Below are positions 4,441 through 30,200 of a stretch of DNA of 64,000 nucleotides, piece after piece (position 1 is the stretch's first letter; every line of letters starts with the position of its first letter). The position numbers and the translations under genes were made by a program. The DNA lies in assembly GCA_942159475.1 (NCBI GenBank), contig OW804095.1, forward strand, positions 149,658,808 to 149,722,807, written 5' to 3'. Source of the DNA: Sthenelais limicola (taxonomy: Eukaryota; Annelida; Polychaeta; Phyllodocida; Sigalionidae). Under the pieces are notes generated by a model. The model saw only the letters and a list, made by a program, of their open reading frames with translations. It had not been told where the DNA came from and made no database searches.

Positions 4441-6110
4441 GCCAAGGGCCTTAGATTCCAGAAAGCGAACAAAACAGGCTTGGTTAGCTTTGGTTGAGGA
4501 CTGTAATGCAGCAAAAATTGTCAGGAACAGGATAAATTAAATTGAAGAAAATGAAAAACGATTATCTAAGAGAACAAATAAAAGGGGCCCTATGGGACAT
4601 TATTTAACCCCTCTTAGCATCAGAGAAACTAAACAACAGAAATATTATTGGAACAAAATTATTACAAGGACACTATAGTTGAAGATGAAACTGTTTCAGA
4701 GGTGTTCAATGACTTTTTTGCTGATATAGGCACCACCCTCTCCAAATCTATACCCCCCCCCCCCCAGACCTGGTCCTGGGTAAGACCATAAAGTGCCTTT
4801 CTGTCTCTTTTGCTCTGTCTCTCTCCCTTCTTCTCTATCTCTATTTCCTGGGTCAAAAACTGCCTCACTCTCAGCTCTCCCGCCCTTGATATAACCTTCA
4901 ATGTGTTGATAAGCAACCAATCTCACTCACTCACTTCCCTCCCCCCCCCCCCACCCACCCACCCACCCTGCTAGACAGCAGGAAGGAGACTTAACTGAAA
5001 AATCTATGCCAGTAGAAACAGTTACAGATGTGGTGGAGGTTCCCAGGGGGAGGTAGTTAAACAAAATTTAATACAAAAATCAGGTACGGGCAAGTCCTCA
5101 GGCATGCCATATCTACCAACACAAATTTTAAAATCATGCTCTCTCACCCACTTCACTCACCTCTGTAATGTTTCTATGAATTCAGGAAAATTCCCTCAAC
5201 CGTTACAAAGCTAGAATAACACCACTCCATAAAGGAGGTTCAAAATTACAAACTACAAACAGACCAATCAGTGCAATCAAATTCACAGCAAAAAACCTGG
5301 AAAGAGTAGTGCAAAAACAGGTCTCAGACTATTTGGAAAAAGAAAATCTACTCTATAAAAATCAATTTGGTTTTAGGCCCAACAAATCAATTTCAGACGC
5401 CTATAATCTGCTAATGAGTGATATCTACAATAAATTAAACCAGAAGGAAATCCCACATCTGGCATATTTGGACTTCAAAAAAGTTTTTCATACATAAACC
5501 ATGAGATTTATTACAAAAAATGACCACATTCGGCGATAAAAATAAAGCACTAGAATGGTTTGGAGATTGTCTAAAAAACAGGTAAACAGAGGGTGGTGGC
5601 AAATGGATATGTGTCGGGGGAGAGAAGGATTACTTGTGGGGTGCCGCAGTGGACTACTTTGGGACCACTGTTGTTTATAATGTACATCAATGATATCCAC
5701 AAGGTTGTTAAAAACTGAAATTCAGCATTTTGTTGATGATATTGTTATATATACATCAGACAGAGACAGGCTTGAAAAATTGCAAAAAGACCGAGCCAGT
5801 ATAGATTTATGGTGCAAGCAAAATAAAATTTCTTTGAATGTTCCCAAAAATTAAAACTATGACAATGACAACATCAAGAACCAAAAACAAGAAAGGAGAG
5901 AAAAAAATACTTATTGGGGCTAATGAGATTGAACAAACCAGTAATTACACATATCTAGGTATGAATATTGACCAAGGGCTAACATTCAGGGAACGCAGAA
6001 AAAAATATAACAAAAGCAAGAAACAAAATTTACTATCTGTCAAAATTGAGAAGAATAGCTTCACCAAACACATAAAGTCACAATAAGCCCCATACTAGAA
6101 TTCGGGGACA
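4440..6110 (+). mobile_element. Decayed non-LTR retrotransposon (LINE), reverse transcriptase region
   Basis: Broken frames on the plus strand spell LINE reverse-transcriptase segments in the expected order: a pre-RT stretch near 4690 (VFNDFFADIGTTLSKSI), an open stretch 5309-5497 with the RT landmarks NQFGFRPNKS and LAYLDFKKVF, and a C-terminal piece at 5838-6086 with NYTYLGMNIDQGLTF. Stops, frameshifts and a poly-C run (about 4750) interrupt it, so it is a dead copy. The segment around 4895-4935 (AAGCAACCAATCTCACTCAC) is a foreign short repeat also seen at 36757-36790. Clade (CR1/Jockey-like) is a guess. Confidence 0.75.
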
Positions 6111-7204: not shown

Positions 7205-7843
7205 ACCCTCTCTGTGAGCGAGTCAAGCAATGTCTTCCATGCACAAATCACCTTCCCCAGCACATGTCACCATCTTGTGGGACCCCACCTTTAGCTAGCC
7301 ATGGGGAGGAAAACCTATCTGACTTTATGGATCACTCCTTGCCTTCATCTTCTTCATCTTCATCTTCAGGAGAGTCTTCCCGCCATAGATCAAGGGGGGA
7401 AAAAACACTGCCCACAGATGTTTCAGGACTTATCAGAAAACAGCTATCTGATGTTAGGTGCATTCTGTTTTGTAATAGCTCCCTGCCTCCATCTCCTTCA
7501 TCTTCATCTTCACACAAGTCTTGCTGCCATAGACACAAGAATTCACCACCTCATGGGACCACATCTGTAGCTAGGCAACACAGAGATGGGGAGGAAAACC
7601 GACCAAGGGGGAAAAATCCAGTGGCAACAGATGTTTCAGGGTGTCGACACAAGAACATGCAGAAATGGAGGCGTAATTCTTCTCACTCCTGTAGGAGGCA
7701 TCACAAAAAGTCAAGAACGACTGAGTACATTGAAACCAACCAGAACCCAGGAAAAGGTGGAAAACACTCTTCTAGTGTAAACCTATATGATGTAAGCCTG
7801 AGATCCATGGATGGAGAAAATTTCGTTGGAACCAAGTTGGAAG
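7205..7843 (+). CDS. Probable exon: Ser/His/Arg-rich segment of the chimeric gene
   Basis: An open frame runs from an ATG at 7180 to 7851, but a strong acceptor (TTTATTTTGTTTGGTTGCAG) ends at 7204 and a strong donor (GAAG|GTAAGT) starts at 7844, so an internal exon of phase 1-1 is likely. The exit phase matches the next exon at 13077. The peptide has two serine runs (SSSSSSSS and PSPSSSSS), several CHRH/RHRS basic clusters, and a duplicated module (GEEN...TDVSG twice), so the exon grew by internal duplication. No known domain. If the ATG at 7180 is used instead, this is the first coding exon. Confidence 0.55.
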
Positions 7844-10800
7844 GTAAGTGAATTTTTCCATTTACTAAAGACTAGTGCTAGAAGATTTTCTATACCTTGA
7901 GCTATGCTAAATTGTTTTAGAAAAGAGTATACTGTAGTGGCCCTGTTTATAAGCCGGGACCTGTTTAAAAGCCTATCTCAAATACAAACCGGATATAGTA
8001 ATTGGGGGTCATGAAAACAAAAGCGTCTCTCAAATATACGCTGGGGGTCTCAAATATTAGCCGGGCTCATCTATGTCTATGTCTAATGAAAAATAAAGTC
8101 AACTAGCCTAAGTCAATTTCCCTTGTAAATATTCATTTAATGTATGATTTCTTCTTAGTTTTCATTGAGTCATGTATATAGTTTTATTGTCAAGCACCCT
8201 TGAAACTGAAAATGCATGCACCACAAAAATAATAAAAGCCTATCTCGAATAGAAGCCTATCTCAATTACAAGCCGGGGCAAAAGGGACCTTCAAAGAATT
8301 AAAAGTCTGGGCCATTGCAGTAAATAAGGATATAATTTCATACAGTTCATATGGTTCATATAAGTAACGGTTGGGGTTGATATGGGAGGGTGAGGGATGA
8401 GGTGTCCATTGGGTTTTATTGGTCTTTTTGTCTAGATGGGTTAGAATTGTGTTGTAATTTCTTGATATGTGTGCACGCATCTGTAGGTGCAAGTCAGCAA
8501 GACGTTTCTGTCTGGCGTATCTTTTATCTTTGTGTCTCTTGTGGTTTGGGTCATTTTTGAACTGCTCAAATTTTGGGATGGCTTTTTAATAGGGGGTGAA
8601 TTGTTCCTGTTTTTTGTTTCTAGGTTGCATGGGGCTTTCTTTAGTGTTCCTGTTTTTGGTAGGGGGAGTAGAAGGTTGTATGTATATGTTGTAATTGTGT
8701 GACTGTTGTGTGTTTTAGGATGTTTTGGCTGTGCCCTTGACCTTTTGCACATGAGGCACAGTAGGAGCCTCTCTCTTCTATCTTTGAGCGTTTCTAGTCC
8801 TAGTATTGCTAGTTTGTCTGAGGTTGATTAGTGTTTTTTGGTGCTGGTAATAATCCTGATTGCTCTTGATTAGATGTGTTCCAGTTTGTTTATGTTGTTT
8901 TGTATACCAAAGTCGTAGATTGGGGAGTTGTAAAACGCCCATGTCTTCCGGCTGTTACCGTGATGAAAGATTTAAAATTAACTAAACAGGAACTACACAA
9001 GGGTTATACATTATGACATTAAGTATACAAGGTTCAATATTTAAGTTTAAATTTTTAGATTCCACCCTCTATATTAGCCCTCTCACCCTCTCATTGATTG
9101 AATGGTAACATCAACCTGTTTCTGTGCATTTAACTTTTGATCCAGCTAAGTATAGCGAACAAGTTCTTTCCTTTGCTTTCTTATTGATGTGAGTAGTAGT
9201 ACCATAATCCAACCTTGCCCACCTCCACAGAGACTGCCCTGCGATCGCTGTGTGTTCCATCATTCACGCAGGGCTGAACTGAGTTAGAAGTCATAATGTA
9301 CTATAATAGGGGTATATTCATTAGCTTCTATCTTTTTTCTAGTGGGGGTAGAGATACAGTGAGTACTTTCTGAGATAACTGGATTGAGTCGGTAATCATT
9401 ATATATGCATTCCCCCAACCAAGAGACCAAATGCACCGCCTGTAGTCTTTAAGTATTCTGTGCAGAATTTCATTCCACTTGGATGCTAATCATCTTGTGT
9501 GGTGCCTAGGTATTTGAAACTTTCTACTAAATCAAGTTCTGTTTTATGCAGTTGTAGGTCAGAGGAGGTTGCAGCTACTGTTTTTTTTATTTTGTGAATG
9601 ATAGGACTTTTGTTTTGGATGTGCTGATTGTTAGTTTATTTGTGGCACACCATTCTTCCTGTGTTTTTTTTTTTTTTTTTTGAAACATGGTTTATTCAGT
9701 CTGTCAACAAAACTTCTCCTTCGCCTAGAGCTTTTACATTAAATATTACATAGCTCTTTCCTGCTTGATAAAATAAAAATAAAGGGAAAAATGACCCAGG
9801 TCTTTTGGGTGAATTATACATTGTCATCATGCGACTCTTAATATTATCAATTGTTATAAACGATTAAAGGTGTTAAAAGAAGAACATTTTCATTTTTGTA
9901 TTATTAAAAGATTCATACATCAATTTTAATTTAGATCCTCACAGGTGGACATCAGATCCGCGTTTAACTTTAGCCATATTTCTTTGGTTTCATTATTTAC
10001 ATTTTGGGTGCTGTTCTGGTACATTATAATTTTACTCTTAATTGCTAACTCCGATATAATCATTTTAAAGGTTAACATACCTTCATGGAATAGTTTTTGC
10101 CTCTGTATAATGGCTTTCATTTGTAATATAATCCAACCTATAACTCTGGCATTAATATTATCTGTTCTTATTCCAAGAATAACATCGCTTGCATTTATAT
10201 CCATTTTACTTCCATTTTTTTTAAGAATCATTTTGTCTCCATTAGTTCTATTCAGGTAACCTGTTGATTCAATAAAAAGGAATACTTCTTGCCACATTGC
10301 TTTTGTTTTCTTACATTCGACAAAGAAATGTATTATGTCATCGTCATAACTACAGAACGAACATTTTTTCTTCTCTATTATTCCCATATTTTTTAGTTTG
10401 ACATTGCAAGTGATAGTTCTGTGTAAAACACGGTATTGTAATGCATGGATTCTTGATTCTTTGGTAACAGCATATGGGTTATAGAAAACTTTTTTCCAGT
10501 CAATTGCATTAAACTCTTCATCATCCAGATTTAGAATTTTTTGCCATTCATATATCTTTTCCCATTTGGGTTTTCTCTTAGCAACCAGGGCATTATATAA
10601 CATTTTTGAACTCGCGTTTTTTACATCAATCTTTACATTTTTAATTTCTATTTCTATTACATCCTTAACAGGGTTTTGGATGTTATTACGAAGCTTATTC
10701 CACCACTCTATAGGCACAGCTTTTTTTATGATATTTCTTGGCAAGTCTATATTGGTGCTATATTCAGTTCACCTCTGTCATTTAATATATCTCCAATTAC

Positions 10801-13800
10801 TTTAATTCCAAGATTTTCGCCTCTTTCCCATCCTATGGGGATTTTTTTAACAGCAATTAATTTGTTTCTCCATAGCCTTTCTTTTCTGATTTGATCCACA
10901 CTAGTTGGTTTTTGTGAGAAATAATATTTGTTCCAAATATCAAAGACTTCCTCATAAAATTTGTTCAAAGCATGACTGGGTTTATTTCTAATTAAGAAAA
11001 TATCTTCAATTGATTTTCCCTGGTCATGTTCAAGAATTTTAAACCATGATGAATTACTGTTTTCTAGCATCCTTTGAACCCACTTTAATCTGTTTGTCTC
11101 AATTATTTCTTTTATGCATCTCAGATTTAGGCCACCATTCTGACAGTTCTGCGCTAAGAAGTCAGTACTTATTTTATTAGATCCTCCTTTCCATATGAAG
11201 GTGGTGATAATAGTTTCTATCTCTTTTTGTTTTTTTGGATCTATATAAACGCACGATAACGTATGTTGGACCAATGGTAATACAAAAACATTCGAGACTA
11301 ATATTCGACCTTTGATCGTCAATGATCTGTACCTCCATGCATTTATTACATTTTTGATTTTTTGCACAAGATCAACTGTATTTGTTAAAGATAGTTCTTT
11401 TTCGCTTCTTGGCGACATAAGGGTGACCCCTAGAATTTTTATTTCTTTCTCCCAGTTTAGTTCTAACACCTTTCTATTAGATAGAACAAAGTTTCCAATT
11501 CTGAAACCTTTTGATTTTTTGGCATTAAGTTTTAGACCAGTCACTAAATAGAAGTCATCTATTTTTCTAAGTCATTTTACTAGGGATATTTCATTCTTTA
11601 CCATGAGGGTGCTGTCGTCTGCGAACTGTATTATTTTATTCTCATATCCTCCTATATTTATTCCTTCTATCTCGTTATCATTTCTTAGGCTTTCTGCTAG
11701 CTTCTCTACTATCATTGTGAACAGATAAGATGAGACTGGGTCTCCCTGTTTAACTCCCCTTCTTATGTCAAACCAATTGGATATATGACCATTGTTCGAA
11801 AAGGCAGCTTTAGAGTTTTCTAGTAAACATTTTATCCACGATCTGAAAGTGTCGCATATATTATGAGAGATTAAGACTTTTTCTAAGAAGGTCCAACTGA
11901 CTGAATCGTACGCTTTGGAGAAGTCCAAAGCTACTATTAGTCCCTCCTGTCGATTTTTTTCCAAGTAAGAAATAGTGTCATCAATCTTTCTGACTGCTGT
12001 GCCTATATATCTTCCATGGATAAAGCCAAATTGATCTTCTTTTATCATATCTGTAATATGCATTTTTAGTCTTGATGTGATAGTTTTAGATATAATCTTA
12101 TAATCAACGTTGAGTAACGTTATTGGTCTCCAATTTCCCAGGTCTTCTAAATTTTTATCTTTTTTGGGTATGACACTTATTATTCCTCTTGACTGACTTT
12201 CAGATATTTTTCCCTGAGCTAGATTGAATGCGCTTCTTCCTGTGTTGGTAGTGCTGACTGAAGTGGCGGGATGGTGTGTTTATGTCTTTTGTTAGAGATG
12301 TAGATGTGATGTGATGTGTTTGGATCATAGACATTAGGTGGGATATAGGTCAGTGTAGTTTAAGAGGGAGTGAAATGTGTCAGGGTCATGTTGTTTCGAT
12401 ATGACCTGCCCATTTTGGGGATCTCTTTGATTTTAGGCTTGCCGTCTGTTTTACTAGGAATATTGGGGTAGTGGTCACTGATATTGAGATGGAATGTGCC
12501 TGACTCATATATGTGCAAAATGTTTTTGTATGTGATGGATTAGTAACAAAGTGTTCTTAGTTGTTTGGGTAGGTGTTGGATGATTTGCTTTAGGGAGTGT
12601 GACTTAGCTCAGTTATCTTGTTCTGATTTGGCTGGGTTTATCTTGGCTATAGGTAATTGCACTAGATAAGGCCCATATGGCATGGAAACTTTTAAAAATA
12701 CAAAAAATCTTTAATCGCGATTTTGTAACCTATATTTAGTATACTTACAATTGTAGACCCTAACCTGAGATTTAATTCATTTTTCAAATTGAAATTACTG
12801 ATATAACCATGGCAACCAACTACATACCTATGCTCAATTGTAATGTCATCAGTCTGTCCATATTTTGGGCTGTATTTGCCATTCCACTAGAATTCCAATT
12901 CAGTTGACATTGGTGTAATTTGCTTTCGTTGCTTTGCTTCCTTGAGCGCGATATTTGAGAACTTAACATTTACAATACATCATGTCATCAATGGAATGTG
13001 GATATCAAACTTAACTTTTCAGCAATGGAGATTACTTGATAAGTGCTATGAGCATTCTTTTATTTCAATTATATAGTCCCCCCAATACAGAAGAGGACGA
13101 AGAGAAGTCATTGGTCTACTGATGTATCAGCGAAAACTACTCTTCCACCAGACATGTCTACTACTCCACCAGACATGTCTACCCTTCCCCGAGTCATGTC
13201 TACCCTTCCCCCAGTCATGTCTACTCTTCCCCCAGACATGTCTACCCTTCCCCCAGTCATGTCTACTCTTCCCCCAGACATGTCTACCCTTCCCCCAGAC
13301 ATGTCTACCCTTCCCCCAGTCATGTCTACTCTTCCCCCAGTCTTGTCTCTACCAGACACATCTACAACTCCACCAGACATGTCCACTCTTCCCCCAGTCA
13401 TATCTACTCTTCCCCCAGTCATGTCTACTCTTCCCCCAGTCATGTCTCTACCAGACACATCTACAACTCCACCAGTCATGACTACTCTTCCCCCAGACAT
13501 GTCTCCACCATCTCCACCAGGCATGTCTCCCCCAGACATGTCTACTCTTCCCCCAATCATGTCTCCACCATCTCCACCAGGCATGTCTCCCCCAGACATA
13601 TATCCACCAGACATGTCTACTCTTCCTGTGATCCCTTATAATAAGGAAATAAAAGAGTTATATTCCAAACTACGAGAGCAATGTTCCCAGGGTGAGTATT
13701 TTGGCATGCAATCAAGGATACATTCTATATATCTATCCATCTATAGGATCTATGTTGAGGCAACGGCAGGGTAAGTCTGATTTTAGAAGTGGAATAAAGA

Positions 13801-16800
13801 TCATAGCCTTTAAGGGAGCTTGGAGAGGATAACATTATACTTTTTTTTTTTTTTTTTTTTGGAATACTTTTTTTTTCTTTTTTTACTTTTTTTTTTTTTT
13901 AAAGAGTTTTATTTTCATATTAGACAGAAAATTTGCAGACAAACTTGTGCAGGCTTGAAAAAATCCTGCGTCTGGGCTGTCCGCAACACCTATGGCAGTG
14001 AGGCAGACAACCAAAAATGAATATATGGGCTTCCTCTGGACAACCAGCTTTTACTTATCTTTGGTGGGAGTGGACAACCACATATTCTGTGAGATATAGA
14101 TAAAACCTAAAGAGAATGTGGTACAAGAGATACTATTGCACTGTCCAAGATCTTTGGTTTATCGGGCTACGAAAAAACCCCCAAGCATTGAGGAAAGTGC
14201 AATATTGTCCCGAGTACCACATTCGAATTTAGGTTCTATATTTACTCCCACGTTGCTATGTATAACTATAAAGCTGTGTACTGGGGGGAGGAAGAGGGAA
14301 TGGCAATGTCATACCACATGTGTTGAACTGGTGCAAATTACCACGCTACTCCTGTCCATACAAATAGCATGTGGTACATACACCAACGTGGAGTAAATAT
14401 GTCAGACAACCATATTTTGAAAAGTGCACATTTTGAAGTGATTTTTTCAGCCCTGTTGTGTAATAGTAATAAAGCTAATAGATACCTGGACGTAGATGAT
14501 CTTTCTTGACTATATATACTTCAAACTTCACTTGTCAGTAATAAATAGAAAAAACATCAATGAATTTTTTGTAATTCCCATACCTATCACCCGGTCATGC
14601 TTCGTCTATATCTTCTCTTTTTGTTCCACTGCTCTAAGAGGGTGTACCAAGAAAGAATATTGGATTAAATGTGTCTTTGTTTCATAGTTTAATCCATTTA
14701 CTTCCAGTGCAACTGGAGATAAAAAAAATCATGTCTACTGCTCCACCAGACATGTCTCTGCCAGACATGTATTCACCAGGCATGTATTTACCAGGCATGT
14801 ATTCACCAGGTATGTATTCACCAGACATGTCTCTGCCAGACATCTATTCACCAGGCATGTATTCACCAGGTATGTATTTACCAGACATATCTCCACAATA
14901 CATGTCTCTGCCAGACATGTATTCACCAGGCATGTATTTACCAGATTCACCAGACATGCCTACTGCCACTCCAGACATGCCTACTGCTCATCCAGACATG
15001 TATTCACCAGACATGTCTTCACCAGACACGCCTCCACCAGGCAATTCTCCACCAGGCATGTATTCACCAGACATGTCTTCACCAGACACGCCTCCACCAG
15101 GCAATTCTCCACCAGGCATGTATTCACCAGACATGTCTTCACCAGACATGTCTTCACCAGACATGTCTACTGCTCTGCCAGATTTCTCCCCAACAGACAT
15201 GTATTCACCAGATTCACCAGACTTTTCTCCACCAGACATGTATTCACCAGATTCACCAGACTTTTCTCCACCAAACATGTATTCACCAGATTCACCAGAC
15301 TTTTCTTCACCAGACATGTATTCACCAGATTCACCAGACTTTTCTCCACCAAACATGTATTTACCAGATTCACCAGACTTTTCTCCACCAGACATGTATT
15401 CACCAGATTCACCAGACTTGTCTCCACCAGACATGTATTTACCAGATTCACCAGACTTTTCTCTACCAGACATGTATCCACCAGATTCACCAGACTTTTC
15501 TCCACCAGACATGTATTTACCAGATTCACCAGACTTTTCTCCACCAGACATGTATTCACCAGATTCACCAGACTTGTCTCCACCAGACATGTATTTACCA
15601 GATTCACCAGACTTTTCTCTACCAGACATGTATCCACCAGATTCACCAGACTTTTCTCCACCAGGCATGTATTTACCAGATTCACCAGACTTTTCTTCAC
15701 CAGACATGTATTTACCAGATTCACCAGACTTTTCTCCACCAGACATGTATTTACCAGATTCACCAGACTTTTCTCCACCAGACATGCATACTGCTCCTTC
15801 AGACAGTTCTCCACCAGACATGTATTCTGCTCTGACACCAGACATGTATTCACCAGGCATGTATTTACCACACAGGCCTACTACTCCTTCAGACCGTTCT
15901 CCACAAGACTTGTCTCCACTGTCTCCTCCAGACATGTCTCTAACAGACATATCTACTGCTCCACCAGACATATCTCCACCAGACGTGTCTACTGTTCCTG
16001 TGATCCCTTGTAATAAGGAAATAAAAGAGTTAAATTCCAAACTACAAGAGCAATGTTCCCAGGGTGAGTATTTTGGCATGCAATCAAGGATACATCTATC
16101 TATCTATCCATCTATAGGACCTATGTTGAAGCAAAGGCAGGGTTTAGTCTGATTTTAGAAGTGGAATTCATCCCCCAAAGATTATAACATTTAAGGGAGC
16201 TTGGAGAGGACCACCTTTTAATTGAGCAGGGTTAAAAAAGTCCTGTGTCCGGGCTGTCCACAACACCTACATCAGCCCGGCAGACAAACAAATATGAATA
16301 TATGGGCGTCCTCTGTACAACCGGCTTTTACCTATCGTTGGTGTGTGGGGACAAGCCTATTTTCTGAGATATATATCCTTAGGACAACCACTTTTTGAAG
16401 CAATTTTTTCAACCGGTGCAACACCAACAAACTTACAATTAACACAAAAAACAAAAGTCATAACTTTTACCCTGAAACGAACAACCCCACCCACTGCATC
16501 CAACCTGACTCTACACAACACTGAGCTAGACCTTGTTGATCACTGTAACTACCTTGGCACTACACATGACGACAAAGTCAATGCACAGAAATAAATAAAT
16601 GAAATAACACACACCACAAACTCTGCCTGTTAGCACGCATCAGACACATGCTCACAAAACAAACAACACTGAAAATCTACAAAGCTATGTTACTACCCCT
16701 ACTTGACAACTATAATTCAGCAATATATGACTTTGGCAACGCAGGCCAACACAAACAAACTGAAACCTATCCAAACACAAGCAGTCAGAATCATTACACT

Positions 16801-19800
16801 GACTAGAAAACATAAATCAGTTGCAGACATACTACCATCTCTAGGTCTCCAACCACTGGATTTAAGAAGGGAAAAACACCTACTGTGTCTCATGTAAAGA
16901 TGATCCCAAGATGCACCCACAAATGCACACACACACACAAAAAAACCTGCTCACAACATAAATATAACCTACCTCTCTCTGCCCATGCCAAAAAAATGAA
17001 TCCCTCAGAATTGCCCCTGCTACAAGGGTGCCAAAGTATGGAACGCCCTCACTTTGACAGAAAAAAGCTCTCCCTCATACAAAGAGTTCAAGAAACTCCA
17101 CTTGTCAACAATAAATAGCAGAAACAACATCAATGAATTCTTTGTAATTCTCATACCTATCACCTGGTCAAGCTACCTCCATAACTTCTCTTCTTGATCC
17201 ATTGCCCTAAGATGGTGTACCAAGAGTGAATATTGGATTAAGTGTGTGTGTCTTTGTTTCATAGTTTAATCCATTGACTTCCAGTGCAACTGCAGATAAA
17301 GAATATCAGTCTAACTAGCCCCAGAGACAGGTTTGGTTCAATAGCGTCTTCTGGATTTCTTTATTGTAATGCTTACACAGTTTAAGAGTTGAAATTCATG
17401 TTCGCTCCCTGTGAGCTACTTATTGTTTCTTAAAACCCCTGCTTGTTGCAGTTATGATAAAGTTTAATAGCTTTTTCCTTTCCTTCTCAACTGAGTTGAA
17501 TTTTAGAAAACTAATTTTAGGAACTAATTCAAAATGTTAAGCTAATCTTGTTTTTTATTTGAAATGCTATAACCATAATAATGACATTTTCAGGATCATG
17601 CCAGTAATGAAACTTTCCATGTCAATTCATGATTTTACCATTAAAACCAATCTAACCATTTTATTCTTCATGTAGATTAGACGTGGGGGTTAGGGTTCAG
17701 AAAGCATGCAGAGCTTGACAGTCCTGCATGGGCATACTATAGAAATAGATTGGAGATGCAAGATATACTTTTATCATTAATTTGAATCATCTCATCGTGC
17801 ATCTGACGAGGGTGGCAAGTATACCTTGTGTTGTACCAGTGTGTTAGCTGTGTTATGTACTGAATGCGCACTTGACAGATTGGGAGATGGAGTGCACTGT
17901 CTTGAGGGATACATTCACACTTAAGGGGAGGAAGAGAGAGGGAGTGGGTGGGTGAGGGGGGGTGGGGTGCGGGGAGACAGAGAGCAAGGGAGAGACAGCC
18001 AGACAGAGAGACCCAAGATGATTTAAAGTGAGAACTTTCCTTTTTTTAGTGGTAGGTATTTGTGTGCAAATCTCTGGGGAAAATCTACCCGTCATTGTTT
18101 CCTTTACATTTTACTGAGTCATTGTCATTTACACAGTCATTGTTTCAACGATTAACTTGAAAAACAGGTGTGTAAAATGTAGCTGATTTTTGTTCTTAAA
18201 AAATTGGGAAAATGGAAATAGAGATGGGAGGAGTAGCTGTTGAAATCAATAGATGCTTGCTTTGTTTCCATGACAGGCTAACCCCAAACAGTGATATTAT
18301 CTTTCCATGCCTTTCATGCCAACATCCTGCACATTGATACTATCATTTGGAGTGTATTTGATTCATAATACTAAATCATAAATGTTACGCTCACACTAAA
18401 CCTAAATGATATGATAGATTTGCAAAAGGAGTGGTATGAACGCGTTTTCCTCATTGGTGAAAAAAATCTGCCTCTGACACACAAGCAATAGTGAGTTTGG
18501 GGAGGCAAGATTTTTCTCGCATTTTAGAGTCAATGGAATCTGCTAAACAGGTCGGAGAAGCTGGAAGAAGAGCGTAATATCCTCACCATGAAGACTTTAA
18601 TGCACAATGCTGAGGACAAAGGGTCTGCAAATTACCAGTAAGTTTAGCAGTAATTTACCTTTATTTTAAGCAAAGATTTCACCAAAGTTCTGATTCATTG
18701 TCAATTTCTGAACCATTTTATAATTATTATGAATTTAAATTAATAAAAAATGCATAAGGTAAGTTGTTGCTGTCATAAAAGTTTTTTAACTAGCTTTAAA
18801 GCTATCGATGAACTGGTTAATATTAGAAGTAATGAGAAACAGGCTGAGTACTGTTTCTGAATTAGTATAATGGTCAAGAACCAAAGTCCAAGTGTCTGGT
18901 CAGGTCTGCTGCTATTTATACAAAAAAGGCATCCACCATGTTATATTATACATTTGCTAGATAGGCATAACTCTTATTATTATTAGGATGCGCCCAATAT
19001 TGGTAGGACAGTTTTATAATCAATCATGTAAAGGATTAGTAGTTTGAATCGATTTAGAATTTGACCCAAAACAGCCCTTGTGTATGCCTACCAATTTCGC
19101 GAGGATCAACCATATATATTCACTAATTTTTACTCTGAGGCTGTAGCTTGAAATAAAAGGTGCAAGAAAATCTGCCTCTGACACACAAACAATAGTGTGT
19201 AGTGTGTGTGTTGAGGCAAAAATTGTTTCTCTAGCTATGAGATAATGGAATCTGCTAAACAGGTTGGAGCAGCAGGAAGCAGAGAATCACATCCTCACCA
19301 TGGAGAATCGCATGCTCATCATAGCACAAAATGCTGAGTAAGTGCAATAATTATTTACCTTTATTTCAAGCAAGGATATCTTAAAGAGATAAACCACTGT
19401 TCAACAGGAAAAAAACCCAGAAAATAACATTTTCTTTAAACTTTGCCTCGTGAAAGAACATGGTTAAGTGAATCCAAAAAGCCAATAAAAATATCATGTC
19501 ACCAGGTTAGTTTTCATTTCAGGGAGCCCTGAAATTTATACCTGTTTACTATAGAAGTCTATGGGAAAAGGAAAATTTTTCCTGTTTTTTCAGTATAAAA
19601 GAAAATGGAAAATACCTTTTTCCTAAAAATCTCTATATTCATAGCTAACATATTGCTTTACCCTTACATACAATGACAGTCACCAGCTTTTGAAAAAAGT
19701 TATTCAACTGAATTTGCATCCCGATGAGTAAAAAACAGGAATATTGAAGATTATCTTAAGTCATATCTTTAAGAAAAATGCTGATACCCTGTTCTTTCAT

Positions 19801-22800
19801 GCATGAGGGCAAACCTGAATAATAGCTATGTTTAGAAGAATTTTGAACAAAAATTTTCCCCACAGACTTCAATACTAAACTTTGGTGGTCCCTAAAATGA
19901 AAAAAGAAATATGGTGAGATCCATTTCTTTTTGCTTTTTGTTATCAACCATGTTCTTTCTCAAGACAATGTTTGGAAAAAATATTGTGACTCCTTATTTT
20001 TCATGCATTAGTTACTTAAACTCCTGCCTGCAGCAGTGCATATGACAGTGGTTTATCTCTTTCGGCTGCATGATGGATACATAACTAAGTGTAAACTTGA
20101 GCCATTGAATCACACTTGTAGTTCTAACCTCTCGTTCAGTTCTATCTAATTATCAATTTCTGAATTTATTGTCTTCTTTATATGCTTACAGTAAGCTGAA
20201 GCAGTTACAGCAGACACAGAGTACTGAGACTGACACCATTAGATGTTATAAGTGTGGTGCTATGGATCACACAGTACAGAACTATAACACCATAAAACAG
20301 TTACAGCAGCTACAGAGTACTGAGACTGACACCATTAGTATGAACTGTAACACCATAAAACAGTTACAGCAGCTACAGAGTACTGAGACTGACACCATTA
20401 GATGTTATCAGTGTGGTGCTATGGATCACACAGTACAGAACTGTAACACCATAAAACAGTTACAGCAGCTACAGAGTACTGAGACTGACACCATTAGATG
20501 TTATCAGTGTGGTGCTATGGATCACACAGCACAGAACTGTAACACCATAAAACCGTTACAGCAGCTACAGAGTACGAAGACTGACACCATTAGATGTTAT
20601 CAGTGTGGTGCTATGGGTCACACAGCACAGAACTGTAACACCATTAGCTGTTATCAGTGTGGTGCTATGGATCACACAATGCAGAACTGTAACACCAGGA
20701 TGCAGTTAGAGCAGACACAGAGTACTGAGACTGACACCATTAGATGTTATCAGTGTGGTGCTATGGATCACACAGTACAGAACTGTAACACCATAAAACA
20801 GTTACAGCAGCTACAGAGTACTGAGACTGACACCATTAGATGTTATCAGTGTGGTGCTATGGATCACACAGTACAGAACTGTAACACCATAAAACAGTTA
20901 CAGCAGCTACAGAGTACTGAGACTGACACCATTAGATGTTATCAGTGTGGTGCTATGGATCACACAGAGCAGGACTGTATCACCATTAGATGTTATCAGT
21001 GCAGTGCTATGGGTCACACAGTGCAGGACTGCAACCCCATTACATGTTATCAGTGTGGTGCTATAAATCACATTGTACAGGACTGTAACACCATTACATG
21101 TTATGAGTGTGGTGCTATGGATCACACAGCGCAGGACTGTAACACCATTAGCTGTTATCAGTGTGGTGCTATGGATCACACAGAGCAGGACTGCAACACC
21201 AGGATGCAGTTACAGCAGCCACAGAGTACTGAGACTGACACCATTAGATGTTATCAATGTGGTGCTATGGATCACACAGAACAGAACTGTAACACCATTA
21301 GTTGTTATCAGTGTGGTGCTATGGATCACACAGTACAGAACTGTAACACCATAAAACAGTTACAGCAGCTACAGAGTACTGAGACTAACACCATTAGATG
21401 TTATCAGTGTGGTGCTATGGATCACACAGAGCAGGACTGTATCACCATTAGATGTTATGAGTGTGGTGTTGTGGGTCACGCAGCATGGGACTGTAACACC
21501 ATTAGCTGTTATCAGTGTGGTGCTATGGGTCACACAGCACAGAACTGCAACACCATTAGATGTTATCAGTGTGGTGCTACGGATCACACAGCACAGGACT
21601 GTAACACCATAAAACAGTTAGAGCAGACACAGAGTACTGAGACTGACACCATTAGATGTTATCAGCGTGGTGATATGGGTCACACAGCACAGAACTGTAA
21701 CACCATTAGATGTTATCGGTGTGGTGGTACGGGTCACACAGTGAAGGACTGTATCACCATTAGATGTTATCGGTGTGGTGCTATGGATCACACAGCATGG
21801 GACTGTAACATAAAACAGTTTCAGCTGCTACAGAGTACTGAGACTAACACCATTAGATGTTATCAGTGTGGTGCTATGGATCACACAGCGCGGAACTGTA
21901 ACACTAGGATGCAGTTACAGCAGCTACAGAGTACTGAGACTAACACCATTAGATGTTTACAGTGTGGTGCTATGGATCACACAATGCAGGACTGTGACAC
22001 TAGATGTTATCAGTGTGGTGTTGTGGGTCACACAGCACAGGACTGTGACATCAATATCTGCTATCCATGTGGTGCTATGGGTAACACAGCACAGGACTGT
22101 AACACCATGAAGCAACAGACACAGAGTATTGAGAGTAACACCAGTAGCTGTTTACAGTGTGGTGCTATGGATCACACAGCACAGGACTGTAACACCATGA
22201 AGCAGCAGACACAGAGTATTGAGAGTGAGACCAGTAGCTGCTTACAGTGTGGTGCTATGGATCACACAGCACAGAACTGTAAGCAGAGTTATCCTGATAA
22301 CACTGACAGAGCTGCCATACAGCAATGTTCAGGTGTGGACAAGGCTAAGATGGATAGCGAGGTAGGCACTATTATGTATTACTGTTTTTATTTCGGGTTG
22401 ATATGCTAAACTATTCTTAATAGAATAGGGACAGAAGTTTATCACACAAAAAAATCAAAAAAATTATTAACAGTTAAACAAATCAAACTGATAAAAGGGT
22501 TGTCCAACCCTTGCACTTCAACCCTTAAATTTTTACTTTGCATTTCCCCCTCCATCAGACTGAAATATATTATATTTTTATGTGTTTTTATTCAGGCTGG
22601 ACAACCAGATGAGCTGAGTGAAGGGAAGGAGGCAATGTATGTGGAGGAAAAGAAGGCTAAGAATGAAGTACTCAATAACATGAGGAACCTGTTAGAGGAC
22701 GAGCTCAGCTGCTCTATCTGTTCTGAACTGCTCATTCATGCAACCTCACTTGAATGCAGTCACTCTTTCTGCAAATATTGCATCACACAATGGATGCAGA

Positions 22801-23057
22801 AGAAGAATGAATGCCCCACCTGTCGCAAGCCCATAACTTCTCATGTGCAGTCCATAGTGTTGGATAACTACATTGAGAAAGTTGTCAGTGCCATATCTCC
22901 TAAACTTCAAAAAGACAGAAAGGACACTATTGAAAAAAGGCAAGCTGAGGCAGAGGCCATGGCAGCTGAATCTGCACCAGTGGCTGGCACTCTGCTAGAC
23001 CAACTCCACCGTGACGGACAGAAGATCCATCCAGAGCCACAAGAACAGCAGTGCTAG
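7205..23057 (+). CDS. Chimeric SF1 paralogue: CTD-like repeats, CCHC zinc-knuckle array and RNF8-like RING (spliced gene span)
   Basis: Predicted exons: 7205-7843, 13077-13691, 14708-16063, 17285-17330, 18551-18637, 19263-19337, 20192-22361, 22596-23057. Phases match throughout (1-1, 1-1, 1-1, 1-2, 2-2, 2-2, 2-0, 0-stop), giving about 1,816 residues without the unseen start. Order: Ser/basic N-terminus; SF1 exon-2 motif KRTKRSHW; two Pro/Asp/Met arrays; fragments of the SF1 helix-hairpin (VQLQI, KLEEERNIL); 27 zinc knuckles; RING. SF1's KH and QUA2 exons are absent. Homology to the SF1 gene 4 kb downstream covers exons, splice phases and intron sequence. Known: SF1 recognises branch points and binds U2AF2; C3HC4 RING proteins are ubiquitin ligases. 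Inferred: an RNA-associated E3 ligase. The link of exon 7205-7843 to the rest rests on phase alone; a transcribed pseudogene is the main alternative. Confidence 0.72.
7844..8290. repeat. Possible short inverted-end repeat in intron
   Basis: The words TTTATAAGCCGGGAC (about 7946) and its approximate complement ACAAGCCGGGGCAAA, together with several copies of AAGCCTATCTC, flank an AT-rich core. This looks like a small non-autonomous element but the ends are imperfect. Confidence 0.35.
9653..9665. repeat. Target-site duplication, left copy
   Basis: TTCTTCCTGTGTT at 9653-9665 is repeated exactly at 12234-12246, flanking the younger LINE. It lies next to the poly-T run that represents the LINE poly(A) tail. 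Confidence 0.88.
9666..12233 (-). mobile_element. 5'-truncated L1-type LINE with 13-bp target duplication
   Basis: Minus strand. The poly-T at 9666-9681 is the poly(A) tail and 13-bp duplications lie on both sides. Coding runs from about 12230 to 9926: RT with GNWRPITLLNVDYK, DQFGFIHGR, ALDFSKAYDSVSW, GVKQGDPVSSYLF and the catalytic FADDST, then the thumb region, then a CCHC-type zinc motif near the C-terminus (CSFCSYDDDIIHFFVEC). One in-frame stop lies between 11572 and 11546 and one frameshift near 10745, so this copy is inactive, but the damage is slight and the insertion is fairly young. The endonuclease part is missing, as expected for 5' truncation. The RT and terminal zinc motif suit the L1/Tx1 group. 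Confidence 0.88.
9926..12228 (-). pseudogene. LINE ORF2 reverse transcriptase, broken
   Basis: Three open pieces, 12063-11572 (extending upstream to about 12228 without a start), 11544-10747 and 10744-9926, are one reverse-transcriptase ORF interrupted by a single stop (first two pieces share a frame) and a frameshift before the third. The RT palm carries ALDFSKAYDS and FADD; the C-terminus ends in CEDLN just before the poly(A) end. It would have supported target-primed reverse transcription of its own RNA. Confidence 0.85.
12234..12246. repeat. Target-site duplication, right copy
   Basis: TTCTTCCTGTGTT, identical to 9653-9665. It marks the 5' end of the LINE insertion. Confidence 0.88.
12641..13076. 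other. Intron sequence, nothing recognised
   Basis: AT-rich intron ending in TTTTATTTCAATTATATAG, an acceptor that aligns with the acceptor of SF1 exon 2 (TTTTTAATTTCAATTGTAAAG at 30481-30501). Confidence 0.5.
13077..13691 (+). CDS. Chimera exon homologous to SF1 exon 2, with first Pro/Met repeat array
   Basis: Phase 1 in, phase 1 out. The first 13 residues align without gaps to SF1 exon 2: VPPIQKRTKRSHW against ESLLRRKKKRSRW, keeping the basic run and the tryptophan that in SF1 forms the U2AF2-binding ULM. Next come about a dozen and a half 7-residue units of the type MSTLPPD/MSTLPPV (21 bp each), then MSPPSPPG units. The exon closes with VIPYNKEIKELYSKLREQCSQ-type sequence, the counterpart of SF1 VVPTGLSKEQEEQYL. 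The donor G|GTGAGT is at the same codon position as in SF1. Confidence 0.8.
13692..14707. other. Intron duplicated downstream
   Basis: Shares long similarity with 16064-17284: the GTGAGTATTTTGGCATGCAA start, TTTAAGGGAGCTTGGAGAGG (13810 and 16191), the CAACACCTA...GCAGACAA stretch, and the pre-acceptor region from GTGTACCAAGA to ACTTCCAG. A poly-T stretch at about 13843-13900 is unique to this copy. Exon plus intron were therefore duplicated in tandem. Confidence 0.75.
14708..16063 (+). CDS. Chimera exon with CTD-like 13-residue repeat array
   Basis: The acceptor and first codons (G|TG CAA CTG GAG ATA) copy SF1 exon 3, but the reading then enters a long Pro/Asp/Ser/Met/Tyr array and ends like the previous exon (VIPCNKEIKELNSKLQEQCS). 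So this exon is a fusion of an exon-3 start with an exon-2-type end. Positions 15196-15780 hold fifteen 39-bp units, consensus DMYSPDSPDFSPP; upstream are looser SPGMY/SPDMS units and two near-identical 60-bp blocks (15001-15120). Phase 1-1. The antisense frame is also open because the repeat lacks stops; that is not a gene. Confidence 0.78.
15196..15780 (+). repeat. 39-bp coding minisatellite, fifteen units
   Basis: Unit consensus translates as DMYSPDSPDFSPP. Variation is mostly at the residue after Tyr (S, L or P) and at Phe/Leu. All fifteen units keep frame, with no indels, which argues for selection on the protein or for very recent spread. Confidence 0.88.
16064..17284. other. Intron with LINE 3' fragment
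   Basis: Begins as a copy of the 13692-14707 intron. From about 16432 to 17115 it carries a plus-strand LINE tail (HNTELDLVDHCNYLGTTHDD, later IQTQAVRIITLTRKHKSVAD), related to the old LINE at 8262-9652. The last 70 bases repeat the SF1 intron 2 end (GAATATTGGATTAA...ACTTCCAG). Confidence 0.7.
17285..17330 (+). CDS. Chimera exon homologous to SF1 exon 3 (shortened)
   Basis: Reads G|TGCAACTGCAGATAAAG... to GAGACAG, phase 1 to 2, giving VQLQIKNISLTSPRDR. SF1 exon 3 gives VQLQIEEISRRLRTGDLGIP then PNPEDR, so ten residues are lost without breaking frame. Even the unusual donor and following intron bases (CAG|GTTTGGTTCAAT) match SF1 at 32838. Confidence 0.72.
17331..18550. other. Intron similar to SF1 intron 3
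   Basis: Blocks at 17566-17700 and 18225-18300 match 34138-34270 and 34411-34480 in SF1 intron 3, for example TTTACC(A/G)TTAAAACCAATC and TAGATTAGACGTGGGGGTTA. Non-coding similarity of this degree means a fairly recent local duplication. Confidence 0.75.
18551..18637 (+). CDS. Chimera exon homologous to SF1 exon 4, first copy
   Basis: Phase 2-2. Peptide RSEKLEEERNILTMKTLMHN then AEDKGSANYQ aligns with SF1 TRKKLEEERHILIVKASALN then TEYKPPADYK. This is the last part of the SF1 helix-hairpin domain. The N-terminal half of SF1 exon 4, including the SPSP phosphosite, is missing. Donor CA|GTAAGT. Confidence 0.72.
18638..19262. other. Intron, tandem-duplicated unit
   Basis: The last part (about 19160-19262, AAAATCTGCCTCTGACACAC to GGAATCTGCTAAACAG) repeats 18465-18550, showing that the exon-4-like unit was duplicated with its flanking intron, about 710 bp apart. 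Confidence 0.65.
19263..19337 (+). CDS. Chimera exon homologous to SF1 exon 4, second copy
   Basis: Phase 2-2. Peptide QLEQQEAENHILTMENRMLI then IAQNA and a split codon. It is a diverged repeat of exon 18551-18637 with the shared ILTM core. Donor GA|GTAAGT; with the next exon the split codon reads GAT (Asp). Confidence 0.65.
   Translation, partial: VGAAGSRESHPHHGESHAHHSTKC
19383..20062. mobile_element. MITE-like element with perfect 17-bp inverted ends
   Basis: AAAGAGATAAACCACTG at 19383-19399 is matched by its exact complement at 20046-20062. The 680-bp interior has no ORF of note and resembles in part the repeat at about 26437-26875 (shared words around CCAACCATGTTCTNTCTNAA and GGTCCCTRAAAT). 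It fills most of the intron where, by comparison with SF1, the KH exons should be. Confidence 0.7.
20192..22361 (+). CDS. Chimera exon: CCHC zinc-knuckle array from SF1 exon 7
   Basis: Phase 2-0, 2,170 bp against 175 bp for the SF1 counterpart. It starts KLKQLQQTQSTETDTIRCY (SF1: KLKQLQQAQSIVTNTIICT) and ends RAAIQQ, then VDKAKMDSE, exactly as SF1. Between them lie 27 knuckle units of the form CYQCGAMDHTVQNC (CX2CX4HX4C) plus one truncated remnant. Twenty-four units keep all four zinc ligands; unit 1 has the last Cys changed to Tyr, one has the second Cys changed to Arg (about 21665) and one has His changed to Asn (about 22084). Units come as long (32 residues, with the Gln-rich linker) and short (18 residues) forms. 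CCHC knuckles bind single-stranded RNA or DNA; SF1's single knuckle supports branch-point RNA binding. Confidence 0.88.
22362..22595. other. Short intron before RING exon
   Basis: Starts GTAGGC after the conserved VDKAKMDSE codons and ends with a T-rich tract and TTTTTATTCAG. SF1 exon 8 would be expected here; instead the RING exon follows. Confidence 0.7.
22596..23057 (+). CDS. Chimera last exon: RNF8-like C3HC4 RING finger
   Basis: Phase 0 entry, 153 residues to TAG at 23055. An acidic/charged lead with a short helical stretch (EVLNNMRNLLEDELSC) precedes a full RING: CSIC, LEC, SHSFC, KYC, NEC, PTC supply all eight zinc ligands, and the sequence ITQWMQKKNECPTCRKPI closely fits RNF8, followed by a VLDNYIEK stretch also typical of RNF8. 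After the RING is a charged helix, then a Gln-rich end. RNF8 is an E3 ligase of the DNA damage response, normally with an N-terminal FHA domain; no FHA is seen here. The frame stays open for 52 more codons after the TAG. Confidence 0.85.
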   Translation, partial: AGQPDELSEGKEAMYVEEKKAKNEVLNNMRNLLEDELSCSICSELLIHATSLECSHSFCKYCITQWMQKKNECPTCRKPITSHVQSIVLDNYIEKVVSAISPKLQKDRKDTIEKRQAEAEAMAAESAPVAGTLLDQLHRDGQKIHPEPQEQQC

Positions 23058-23213
23058 CAAAGGCCACAGCAACAAAATCAGCAACACAAACAGAGACAAC
23101 CTTATCAACAGCTAAATGCAAATGTTGTTCATAGGCATATGCAAGCTGTTGTCCCACCAGCCCTACCGGTTTTAAACCAACCTGAGGTATTCATAGACTT
23201 GGCAGACCCTGAA
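23058..23213 (+). other. Open Gln-rich extension behind the TAG stop
   Basis: In the same frame after TAG (23055-23057) there are 52 sense codons, beginning QRPQQQNQQHKQRQPYQQ and ending FIDLADPE before TGA at 23214. Composition continues the EPQEQQ of the preceding peptide. Either the TAG is a recent nonsense change, a sequence error, or it is read through in part. ATTAAA at 23218-23223 is a possible poly(A) signal. Confidence 0.55.
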
Positions 23214-23216
23214 TGA

Positions 23217-25963: not shown

Positions 25964-27240
25964 AAATAATGTTGATTAGAGGCATATTAATTGAAATTAG
26001 TTATTCACAGAGTTAATTGTTCAGCATAATTTCATTTACAATAATACATAATTAAAGCTTGTCAAGTGAGAACTCAATTTGTAGACTAATATATGTATCA
26101 ACATACCGGTACAGCAGAAATTGAGGAGTCATCAGTGAACTGAAAAATCTACAAGGTTTTGAAAATCCTAGTATGACCTATAGATAGATCCAATGCTAAT
26201 TTTGAAACCCAGAGTATGGGTTTGTTCTTTACAATTTCACAAATCCTACCAACTTCAGATGGATACTGGTAGCCTATGTTCACTTGCCAACATTCCATTT
26301 AAATTGAATAATAAAGACTTTACAATCACTGCAACGTAAACAATTAGGCCTAGTGAATTAAATATTTTTAATTTTGCAACAAATTCTTTATAAATTGTGT
26401 GTATATATAATTGTATATAAACACCCTCGGAGGTAAGGTAAATGTAAAGGTAAATGGTAAATGCCAGCGTTGTCAGCACTTCTGCAGGTGTGTTCAAGAA
26501 AATAAAGCATGAAGAGGGGTAAAAAAAATAAATTTCAAACTTCGTCTTGAGAAAGGACACAGGTGTAGGCCTATATAAAAAGCAAAAAAAAACGGATCAT
26601 AATTTAATTTTATTAATTTAAATTTTAGGGATGATAGAGATTACTACCATTCTATTACTACTAGAGATTACTACCATGGCTATGTTTCTCATTGACTCCT
26701 ATAGTATAGTGAATGGTAGTCGGTGGTAGTAATTTCAATGGTCCCTGAAATAAAAAGTAATTCTATGACAAATAGTTTTTATTGGCTTTTTGGGTTCCCC
26801 CAACCATGTTCTCTCTAAATCCAAAGTCTAAAAAACTGTTTTTTGATTGAACGCTGGCCTTTACCTTTAAGAGACCGTTCATTCTTGGTTCATCTTGTGT
26901 CGTCTGCTCCATCAGTGCGTTCGGTGCGTTCCCAGCGCATCGGGCATTGCCTCGTTTACAAATGCAAGTCGAAATAATACAAATACAGAAATTGAATTAA
27001 AAGTGATTTTTAATTTATAAACGAAAAATTTATGATGATTTCTTATCGAAGACATTACAATTTTCAGCAAAACATAGTACTTGCATCTGTTCTTGTAGGC
27101 AATATTTTGAAACGAGGTCACTGCGTCGACGCCATTTCTCTTTTTCACACGTTCCCCAACGTCAACGTACAAACTCTATAATATCATCATTTTCAAGACG
27201 ACGTTTGGGTTGGAATACCAATTATCCAATAGAATACAAG
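25964..27240. other. Intergenic DNA and probable SF1 promoter region
   Basis: About 26437-26875 is another dispersed repeat with imperfect inverted ends (TAAAGGTAAA...GCCAGCGTT) related in part to 19383-20062. From about 26880 to 27240 the sequence is richer in CpG and leads into the SF1 start codon; no TATA box at a convincing distance was found. Confidence 0.45.
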
Positions 27241-27268
27241 ATGAATAAACGCGAAGCTGAAATGCAAG
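27241..27268 (+). CDS. SF1: SF1 exon 1 (start)
   Basis: MNKREAEMQ plus one base, donor CAAG|GTAAGG, phase 1. Assignment is by phase and position only, because the N-terminal tip of SF1 is poorly conserved. No copy of this exon was found upstream for the chimera. Confidence 0.6.
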
Positions 27269-30200
27269 GTAAGGAAACGTTATTCTATGAAATATTTCGA
27301 AAATTATTCAATCATGTTGGCGTCTCGTCGCGCCGGTCTGGCCTCTGGGTCTCTGGTTTGGGTGTGTGTTGTGATATGTCCGCTCATGTTCATGAAAGGC
27401 GAACCCTGGACGGCAGCAGGGCCAAATGATTAATATTTCGTCCGTATCTGACCATGTTTTGAACAAATTGACACGTGACATGCATTTATTAGCTATGGGC
27501 CATGTGTAGATATATCAAAACAGAGTTACGAAAGAAACGCAGAAAAATATTTAAAAAAAATGATAAGTTAAAAATGGTTACTGACCTTATGAAGTCAGAC
27601 GGTCACTTGAGATGAGGCTATGCGAGGGAGGTGTGCCCGTGGCCTGATTTACATTAGTGGTGGTGGTATCGATGGCATCTGGGGTTTTAAAAAGTAGAAA
27701 AGAATGTAGTAATACTTTTTCCACAGTTTTCTGGTGAATACACAAATGGGGCTCCGTTTGTTTTACGAGAGCCTAGGCTAGTCCTAGTCCTAGAGGCGAG
27801 GGTGTGTATTCGCACCCCACCGCTGTTACGTCACCTGGACCAAAATGAATGTAAATGTACATTCTGTAAACATTTTTGTTTCAAACGAGAGAAATGTGCC
27901 TTTAAATGGTTTACTTCTTTGAATTGTAGTTGGGGTCCGTCTTTTTCTAGGTTGGGGAGTGGGGGCGTAAATCGAAAACACGTTATTCGTCCTACTGCCG
28001 ATAATACCAGGGTTATTAATAATAACCCTTAATTTAGTAATCATTGTGTCCAGGGAGATCCATTATATATGGATCTCCCTGGACACAATGATTACTAAAG
28101 CTGTTCCCTTCCATACAGTGTTATAACTGTCAGGGTAACTTAACCCTTTCCGCAATATATGCAAATCAAAACCTGCTGCGTTTAGCTTATTGATTGGCCC
28201 TGAGTGTAGCACTTGTTAATATGACCGTTAGGATAAGCATCATTGTTAGGATAAGCATCGTAGGTCCATTATTAAGGACAAGGCTAATCCTACTTAAACA
28301 AGTCAGGTGTACTCCCGTCCTGGGTTGACCATCTGGACATGGTTTACCAAATTATTGCAGTCGCTCGAGTAAGGTAGAATCTATTCTGTTTGTTTCATTC
28401 AAATTGCCACCACTATTATAGGCACTAAGTTCTTAATTCAAATCTTTGGAAACAACAAAAATCAAAATTCATAAAATAAAATACTTCCCTAAAATATTAC
28501 CGCCTGAGCCATGAACAAAGAGTAAACCATCCAAATACCAGTCAATGAACGAAATTACTATTTCAGATCTTTATAAAGTAAAACCTAGACGAGAAGTCGC
28601 CAAGTGGCCATGCCATGCATAAAACACCTCAGCTCGGCAATTCGACCCAAGCTCATTGGCCCAACACTATTGGGGAAATCTGCAAATAATTTCCAAAAAT
28701 CCCTACGTTCCCATATGTACACACACTTCAAACCTGTCCCAGTCTCAAGCTTATTGAATATAAGAGACATTTCACCGAAGATTTTAAGCTCTTACTCGTA
28801 TAATTACGCAGTTCCAGCATTACATGCTTACGCCTATGTATCTCTGTTTCTCCTCGTTGGCGACATTACTCGGCTCACTATCACACGCTCGGCCACACTC
28901 GGTGAGCTTCGTGTAATGACGTCATAGTAACGCGCTCGTATAGCAGCGGGGCACAGCCACCATATGATGTGCAAAACATCGCCCGTCATCGGCGATCGTT
29001 TTGCATGTTTAATAGCACAAAAACGAAACGATTTTAATGCGATTGGCCACGGGAGGAGGGAGGGACAGCTTTGAGAATAGTGGGCGGGATGGTGGGGCTA
29101 CAAAAACACTCCATTCCATGTTTAGTAAAGCAAATAACCCAAGACTTCTCCTGTTGTGACGATATCCTGGTGCCACATACCATCTAGACAAAGTATTGCC
29201 CTGTTTTAGGACATCAAGGCCAGCTAATCAGGCTATTAGTGAGGTCCTACCTTATGGTTATGCTATACGTAAACGTATCCGTATCTCTGATATATCAACA
29301 TACATGAGAAGAAAGAAAGGTTCAGCAAAACATGTTGGGAAAAACGTAACAGATCATATCTTAGAGTAATATCTGAGATCATATCAAGCAAAATGTTTCA
29401 TCTCACTATGTATTTTTGATACATAGAAATACGCCTTAAGGTGACTCAGTAGTGATTTTGATTATTGATGAATTTTTCTAAAATTTTTACCAATGATAGT
29501 TGACATGAAATAATCATTATCGAGTGAAAAAAAACCATAGGTCACCAGGCTAGTTTTCATGCTATGGCAGTATGGAGATAGAAATAATGAATCATATTTG
29601 AGTAATTTTACTACATTTGAGTGATTTATTAACATAATTCGTTTAAAATGGTTCTCACATGAATTCAGACATCAAATTTCACCCAGACATTCAACATATA
29701 TATACTTATCATCAGATAATGTTTTTTTCCTCAGATCCTGAGTTAGCCCCCTGGAAGCCCCCTAGTGGCAGTACGGGGCACTAGCAAAATTGACTTTGTT
29801 TAAAAAAACTGTTTGATGAATATTTTTTAAATTTAATATGAATGTAGATACCGTATTTATCAACTCATACACAAAAAATCAGGATGGCTTTCCAGGCTAA
29901 ATTTTTCTATATTACGACTTATTTATGAGAAAAATTGGGAAAAAAATTAAATTCCTGATTAATATTTGATTTGAACAAAAATGGCTTCATAAATCTTGAT
30001 GAAATTCTATATGGATACAGCTATCATAGTTACTAACTCGCACACCAAAAATCAGCATGAATTTCCAGGCCTTTTTTTTTGTGTTACAACTTAATTATGA
30101 GAAAATTGGCTAAAAATGAGAAAATTCTTAATAATTATTTGATTTATACACATATGGCTCCATAAATTTTAATGAAATTTAATATGGATGTATAGGGATC

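Follow-up and report, generated by a model that had tools for sequence, protein, structure and literature searches.

Splicing factor 1 (SF1), the branch-point binding protein, and RNF8, an E3 ligase that combines an FHA with a RING domain, are the closest described relatives of the parts of a chimeric gene found in Sthenelais limicola. We analysed a window of 64,000 nucleotides of animal DNA (GC 0.39) from this species, corresponding to positions 149,658,808-149,722,807 of OW804095.1 on the forward strand. At 7205-23057 (+ strand) a gene model joins copies of SF1 exons, one of them expanded into a long array of zinc knuckles, to a RING exon of RNF8 type. The anatomy of this gene, its SF1 ancestry, its open frame and its RING ligands are established by the data presented here and, on sequence evidence, the chimera is best read as a putative lineage-restricted multivalent zinc-knuckle RING ligase.

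An earlier note on this DNA had proposed eight exons of compatible phase, and both their coordinates and their number hold. All seven introns are bounded by GT-AG, the phases agree at every junction, and the joined exons read through 1815 codons with no internal stop in the coding frame; the alternative frames contain 42 and 128 stops. Two acceptors are available for the second exon (E2), giving an exon start at 13077 or 13091, and the former was picked because it keeps the frame with the first exon (E1). The chimera is somewhat more likely than not to be one spliced gene, roughly as modelled, which would be transcribed as a single mRNA. E1 (7205-7843, +; 212 complete codons) is rich in Ser, Arg and His and has two in-frame internal repeats; under a simple base-composition model, chance would produce its stop-to-stop frame of 225 codons 0.003 times in the window. 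As an in-frame stop at 7171 is followed by an ATG at 7180, just 5' of the proposed acceptor, and by ATGs within the exon at 7264 and 7327, E1 may be the first coding exon, starting at 7180 or 7264, with the start not assured. No Pfam match was obtained for E1 in a scan that covered E1, E2, E3 (from 14731), E5, E7 and E8. A search against Rfam at gathering score returned no matches.

The donor of the duplication is the intact SF1 gene that lies downstream on the same strand (27241-41494, +, 11 exons, S1-S11), as had been claimed. It contains no internal stops when exon 9 starts at 39118, and comprises the helical-hairpin (HH) domain in S2-S4, the KH domain in S5-S6, a single knuckle in S7 and a proline-rich region in S8-S11. 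For exons 2 and 4 the PDB gives matches to SF1 chains (E = 4e-10 and 1e-22), and Pfam recognizes a KH domain in exon 6 and a zinc knuckle in exon 7. Comparing 27000-44000 with 1-26999 by BLAST showed that E2-E7 come from SF1 exons 2, 3, 4 and 7, the assignment made in the earlier note, together with parts of introns 2 and 3 and in the original order. SF1 30479-30539 corresponds to 13054-13114 (E2, the weakest block; 61 bp, E = 7e-4), 32694-32788 to 17213-17311 (E4 and the preceding intron; E = 3e-28), 34073-34267 to 17494-17696, 34394-34487 to 18211-18304, 36595-36682 to 18556-18643 (E5; E = 1e-7), 38088-38167 to 20183-20262, and 38113-38293 to 22203-22383 (the end of E7; E = 6e-24); the DNA match of an intron-3 block reaches E = 4e-52. 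At the protein level, tblastn against 1-27200 recovered S7 (E = 1.5e-16) and S4 (E = 2e-4); S2 and S3 gave no significant match (best E 2.2 and 2.1), leaving E2 without support of this kind. Neither the KH exons S5 and S6 nor S8 matched significantly in that interval (best E 1.6, 0.36 and 1.8), in agreement with the claim that the KH domain is missing. S8-S11 produced no blastn row upstream, and none of the 27 array rows starts beyond 38300. Since intron sequence was copied along with the exons, these alignments indicate duplication at the genomic level rather than retroposition of SF1. Repeats within the chimera (13587-13842 with 15959-16223, 14523-14737 with 17093-17313, and 18456-18680 with 19159-19380) extend this history: E3 looks like a recombinant that begins as exon 3 and ends as exon 2, and a further duplication gave E5/E6. 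A separate 49-bp match connects SF1 intron 4 (36736-36784) with 4896-4935.

The array itself occupies E7 (20192-22361, +), in which SF1 exon 7 has grown into 27 CCHC units with at least three of the four ligands each, the number given in the earlier note; 24 of them conform to the strict pattern CX2CX4HX4C. Unit starts are mainly 32 or 18 codons apart (spacings of 17, 18, 30, 31, 32 and 53 codons were seen), and each of eight array k-mers tested is confined to one phase despite these changes. Residues 1-32 of SF1 exon 7 correspond to the 32-codon (96-bp) unit, and the 18-codon one seems to be this unit minus its spacer. Asp precedes the histidine position in 18 of the 27 units, Gly in eight and Asn in one. 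With 45 Lys and Arg versus 73 Asp and Glu, the array has a pI of 5.27, compared with 8.99 for the SF1 knuckle exon; this acidity disfavours simple RNA binding and weakens the description of the product as RNA-associated. Zinc knuckles are able to bind proteins too, and RNA is unlikely to be the main ligand of the array. A Pfam MutS_I hit on E7 (29.9 bits against a cut-off of 20.6, with no single stretch passing) was taken as a repeat artefact.

The exon that follows, E8 (22596-23057, +; stop TAG at 23055-23057), encodes a coiled-coil/RING segment of RNF8 type. Its best match among solved structures is RNF8 (4ayc, E = 2.6e-27) over residues 8-117, reaching beyond the RING; among other molecules it is followed by a RING2-BMI1 fusion (5.5e-18, in two stretches) and then PCGF5 (1.7e-11). 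All eight zinc ligands are present, in order and with RING spacing, so that the RING is complete, as had been proposed, and by this similarity both it and the flanking coiled-coil segment are homologous to those of RNF8. The stop-to-stop frame of 215 codons is expected 0.007 times in the window under the simple base-composition model, and codon-position GC (0.55/0.36/0.50) is similar to that of the SF1 exons. If translated, the protein would probably be an active ligase.

Upstream of the array, E2 (13077-13691, +) begins like SF1 exon 2 with the ULM-like sequence KRTKRSHW and continues in PPDMSTL repeats of ~21 bp. The KRSHW of E2 is the single ULM-like match; SF1 has KRSRW, so the arginine before the tryptophan is replaced by histidine and the tryptophan is retained. 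A 27-residue piece containing this motif found no match in the PDB. E3 (14708-16063, +) starts like SF1 exon 3 (VQLEIKKI), runs into Pro/Ser/Asp repeats with 39-bp units (YxPDSPDFSPPDM) and ends in a 3' segment copied from E2. It holds 63 SP/TP sites and 16 YxPDSPD heptads (eight YLPDSPD, six YSPDSPD, two YPPDSPD), which in our view resemble the heptad of the RNA polymerase II C-terminal domain. E4 (17285-17330, +) is a shortened SF1 exon 3 (VQLQIKNISLTSPRDR), E5 (18551-18637, +) the 3' part of SF1 exon 4 with its KLEEER helix, and E6 (19263-19337, +) a diverged second copy of E5.

To ask how far this coding structure is constrained, we compared gaps in alignable BLAST blocks of exons and introns. 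Across seven exon comparisons there are three gaps, which are confined to E5/E6 and total 12 bases; two of them are not multiples of three and jointly restore the frame. The introns show 12 frame-shifting gaps per 134 substitutions, a rate that predicts ~10 such gaps in the exons when every exon substitution is counted (P(<=2) = 0.0025) and ~5 when half are (P = 0.12). Within the knuckles, amino-acid changes affect 3 of 108 ligand codons versus 61 of 270 other codons (Fisher 3e-7, the units being non-independent copies), and distinct variants number three in the four ligand columns versus 23 in the ten others. Because the frame survives changes in unit length, the gaps sum to 12 and the ligand codons vary less, the data support a coding gene in which frame and metal ligands would have been kept and the remainder drifted. 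Positive selection in E2/E3 and E5/E6 was rejected: nearly all codon-level changes there look non-synonymous, but the counted test is non-significant. Nor do we claim that exons evolve faster than introns (identity 0.782 vs 0.871), as the intron blocks had been picked by BLAST for their similarity.

Several observations, in the gene and in the searches for relatives, weigh against a functional ligase of this kind. The selection check that the earlier note had called for favours constraint at the ligand codons, whereas the other variation fits neutrality: single-base variants of the knuckles comprise 25 non-synonymous, six synonymous and two stop-type changes (neutral means 23.4, 7.9 and 1.7), the 39-bp units nine non-synonymous and one synonymous (neutral 7.1 and 2.7), the 21-bp units three and two (neutral 3.7 and 1.3), and the duplicated exons 18 and three, which is near neutral (P 0.15-0.32). 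Chimera-SF1 dN/dS values of 0.36, 0.39, 0.87 and 1.03, in 53, 27, 23 and 9 codons, could likewise arise if a nearly unconstrained chimera were paired with a constrained SF1. The knuckles, which the earlier note regarded as kept, are intact in 24 units and lack one ligand in the other three. Its claim that the partner-binding parts of SF1 were kept holds at best for the ULM-like tryptophan; the HH exons have become shorter, occur in duplicate and alternate with Pro/Ser/Asp repeats, and the SURP-binding stretch loses its second half. The end of E7 retains DKAKMDSE, whereas YMSLMAELGE, from exon 8, has no upstream copy; the E7/E8 junction lies, by our estimate, near human SF1 residue 312. According to a published study, SURP binding by SF1 requires human residues 293-327 and becomes barely detectable when the protein is truncated at 315 (PMC4666396). 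Because the junction precedes the exon-8 part of this region, SURP binding has probably been lost. Structure models of E8 are poor (pLDDT 54.6 alone, 50.0 with one relative). Beyond its TAG, a further open frame of 52 codons (23058-23216, +; chance probability 0.034 under the base-composition model) ends in PEVFIDLADPE and a stop, with ATTAAA at 23218; this ending (NQPEVFIDLADPE) resembles a SUMO-interacting motif, and the TAG possibly truncates an older, longer end of E8.

In the protein database, a spliced query of array and RING (876 aa, region 640-876) drew 967 candidates, none with E <= 0.001. The KH exon S6, used as a query, gave 632 significant matches among 668 candidates, and among the best 120 five were 98-100% identical over the whole query; as the residues flanking the exon differ from the window in matches that extend past it, these probably represent related species. 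The S6 result also shows that animal DNA is stored there as single-exon frames, a format to which a spliced query is ill suited. Read through its TAG, E8 matched one of 65 candidates, an FHA-RING protein (44/103 identical). These searches found no relative of the fusion, but they also failed to return the window's own E8, so little can be concluded from the lack of relatives. Viral contigs gave nothing for E8 or for 20991-21410 of E7, and a literature search, with most subscription journals outside its coverage, found no description of an SF1-RNF8 or knuckle-array-RING gene.

Taking both sides together, we lean towards a partial SF1 duplicate that, with an RNF8-derived RING, became a separate gene encoding a multivalent scaffold ligase. 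A partial tandem duplication of SF1 would have taken in exons 2-4 and 7 and excluded the KH exons; the duplicate would then have come to end in the RING exon, its exons 2-4 would have been reduplicated, and coding minisatellites would have expanded, giving E2 and E3 their Pro/Ser/Asp repeats and building the E7 array from a 96-bp unit in SF1 exon 7. The protein would most likely be a long, largely disordered scaffold, in which the N-terminal tryptophan motif and short helices may serve docking or self-association, the 24 intact knuckles may offer many weak sites for protein or nucleic acid, and the RING would recruit a ubiquitin-charged E2 and modify targets gathered by the array. We favour such a scaffold over a U2-targeted, RNA-reading ligase because the array is acidic, SURP binding is probably lost and the ULM-like motif carries the arginine-to-histidine change. 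A bolder version is distinctly improbable: the knuckles, whose form has shifted from the CTLCGG of SF1 towards the CYxCG common to retroviral nucleocapsid and CNBP knuckles, would gather RNA-protein particles or retroelement Gag, the heptads would mimic the polymerase II tail, the tryptophan would dock U2AF-type proteins, and the RING would tag the catch of a protein that had lost its branch-point reader.

The near-neutral amino-acid variation among internal copies, the three incomplete knuckles, the possibly truncating TAG and the shortened E4 would suit a transcribed pseudogene or a gene that once made protein and has recently begun to decay, in which the open frame is left over from long coding repeats. 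We regard this as rather unlikely, for 1815 codons are free of stops, the copied exons compared show no net frame shift, and, although the compared exon segments diverge 11-30% from SF1, no RING ligand has been lost and 24 of 27 knuckles are intact. The locus might instead hold two neighbours, an SF1-like array gene and a small RING gene, an RNF8 fragment or retrocopy, in E8: a single exon runs from coiled coil to stop, and its first in-frame ATG, at 22635, would give 140 residues. Yet E7 needs a 3' partner, no copy of SF1 exon 8 exists upstream of 27200, and E8 has an acceptor of matching phase, all of which make two genes improbable. Still less probable are alternative SF1 exons, with E1-E7 contributing a knuckle array to read-through isoforms and the RING a minor terminal exon. 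The strand is shared, only 4.2 kb separate 23057 from 27241, E7 ends in phase 0, where SF1 exon 8 starts, and E6 in phase 2, as SF1 exons 5 and 7 start; however, the RING exon ends in a stop of its own with ATTAAA nearby, SF1 owns a first coding exon at 27241, and joining E7 with exon 8 would mean skipping 16 kb.

Other elements share the window. Intron 1 of the chimera carries remains of a LINE-type retroelement (9926-12279, -) in three adjoining frames (reverse transcriptase, zf-RVT and one with no match), and a fragment of another reverse transcriptase lies at 5180-5497 (+). A tandem repeat with a 173-bp unit occupies 29862-30239 in SF1 intron 1. Located 3' of SF1, at 44708-49271 (-), are a tyrosine recombinase (Pfam Phage_integrase), a reverse transcriptase plus RNase H and an upstream frame that matches nothing in Pfam, which from these parts we take to be a DIRS-type retroelement. 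Beyond it lie a tandem array with a 48-bp unit (50919-51446; 11 copies, 95% matches) and, at 52713-53033 and 62304-63581 (+), open frames of a further gene or genes, with a PH domain match and a long Ser/Pro-rich frame that Pfam does not match.

If the chimera is expressed, a core splicing gene has spawned a ubiquitin ligase within one locus, with the parent still adjacent; partial duplication, loss of the KH exons, RING capture and minisatellite growth would each be datable in relatives, and the extreme number of knuckles would offer a handle on multivalency in RING ligases. With SF1 it shares exons 2, 3, 4 and 7 and their phases, the intron 2 and 3 parts, the ULM-like tryptophan and the CCHC knuckle. 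Unlike SF1, it has no KH/QUA2 region (KH is absent from the Pfam matches of the exons scanned) and nothing from exon 8 on, its SURP-binding stretch is cut, its HH exons are shorter and present in duplicate around repeats, it carries 27 knuckle units instead of one, and it has gained a RING. From RNF8 it has the coiled-coil/RING segment with all zinc ligands, but as one exon on an SF1-derived body and with no FHA domain found: Pfam detected none in the scanned exons, and the four matches of a rough FHA motif scan of 1-27000 (two on the + strand in introns, two on the - strand) include none in a coding-strand exon of the model. RBBP6/Mpe1 offers an analogy only, a zinc knuckle and a RING in one protein, whereas the chimera has many knuckles, another RING type and no DWNN among the Pfam matches of its scanned exons. 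CNBP-type multi-knuckle proteins presumably share its tandem CYxCG-type CCHC units; the chimera differs in having far more of them, in its acidity and in the attached RING. As KH, FHA and DWNN were not found, it is neither an SF1 nor an RNF8 nor an RBBP6 and, if it works, would do so in the manner of other RING ligases that bind their substrates through repeats.

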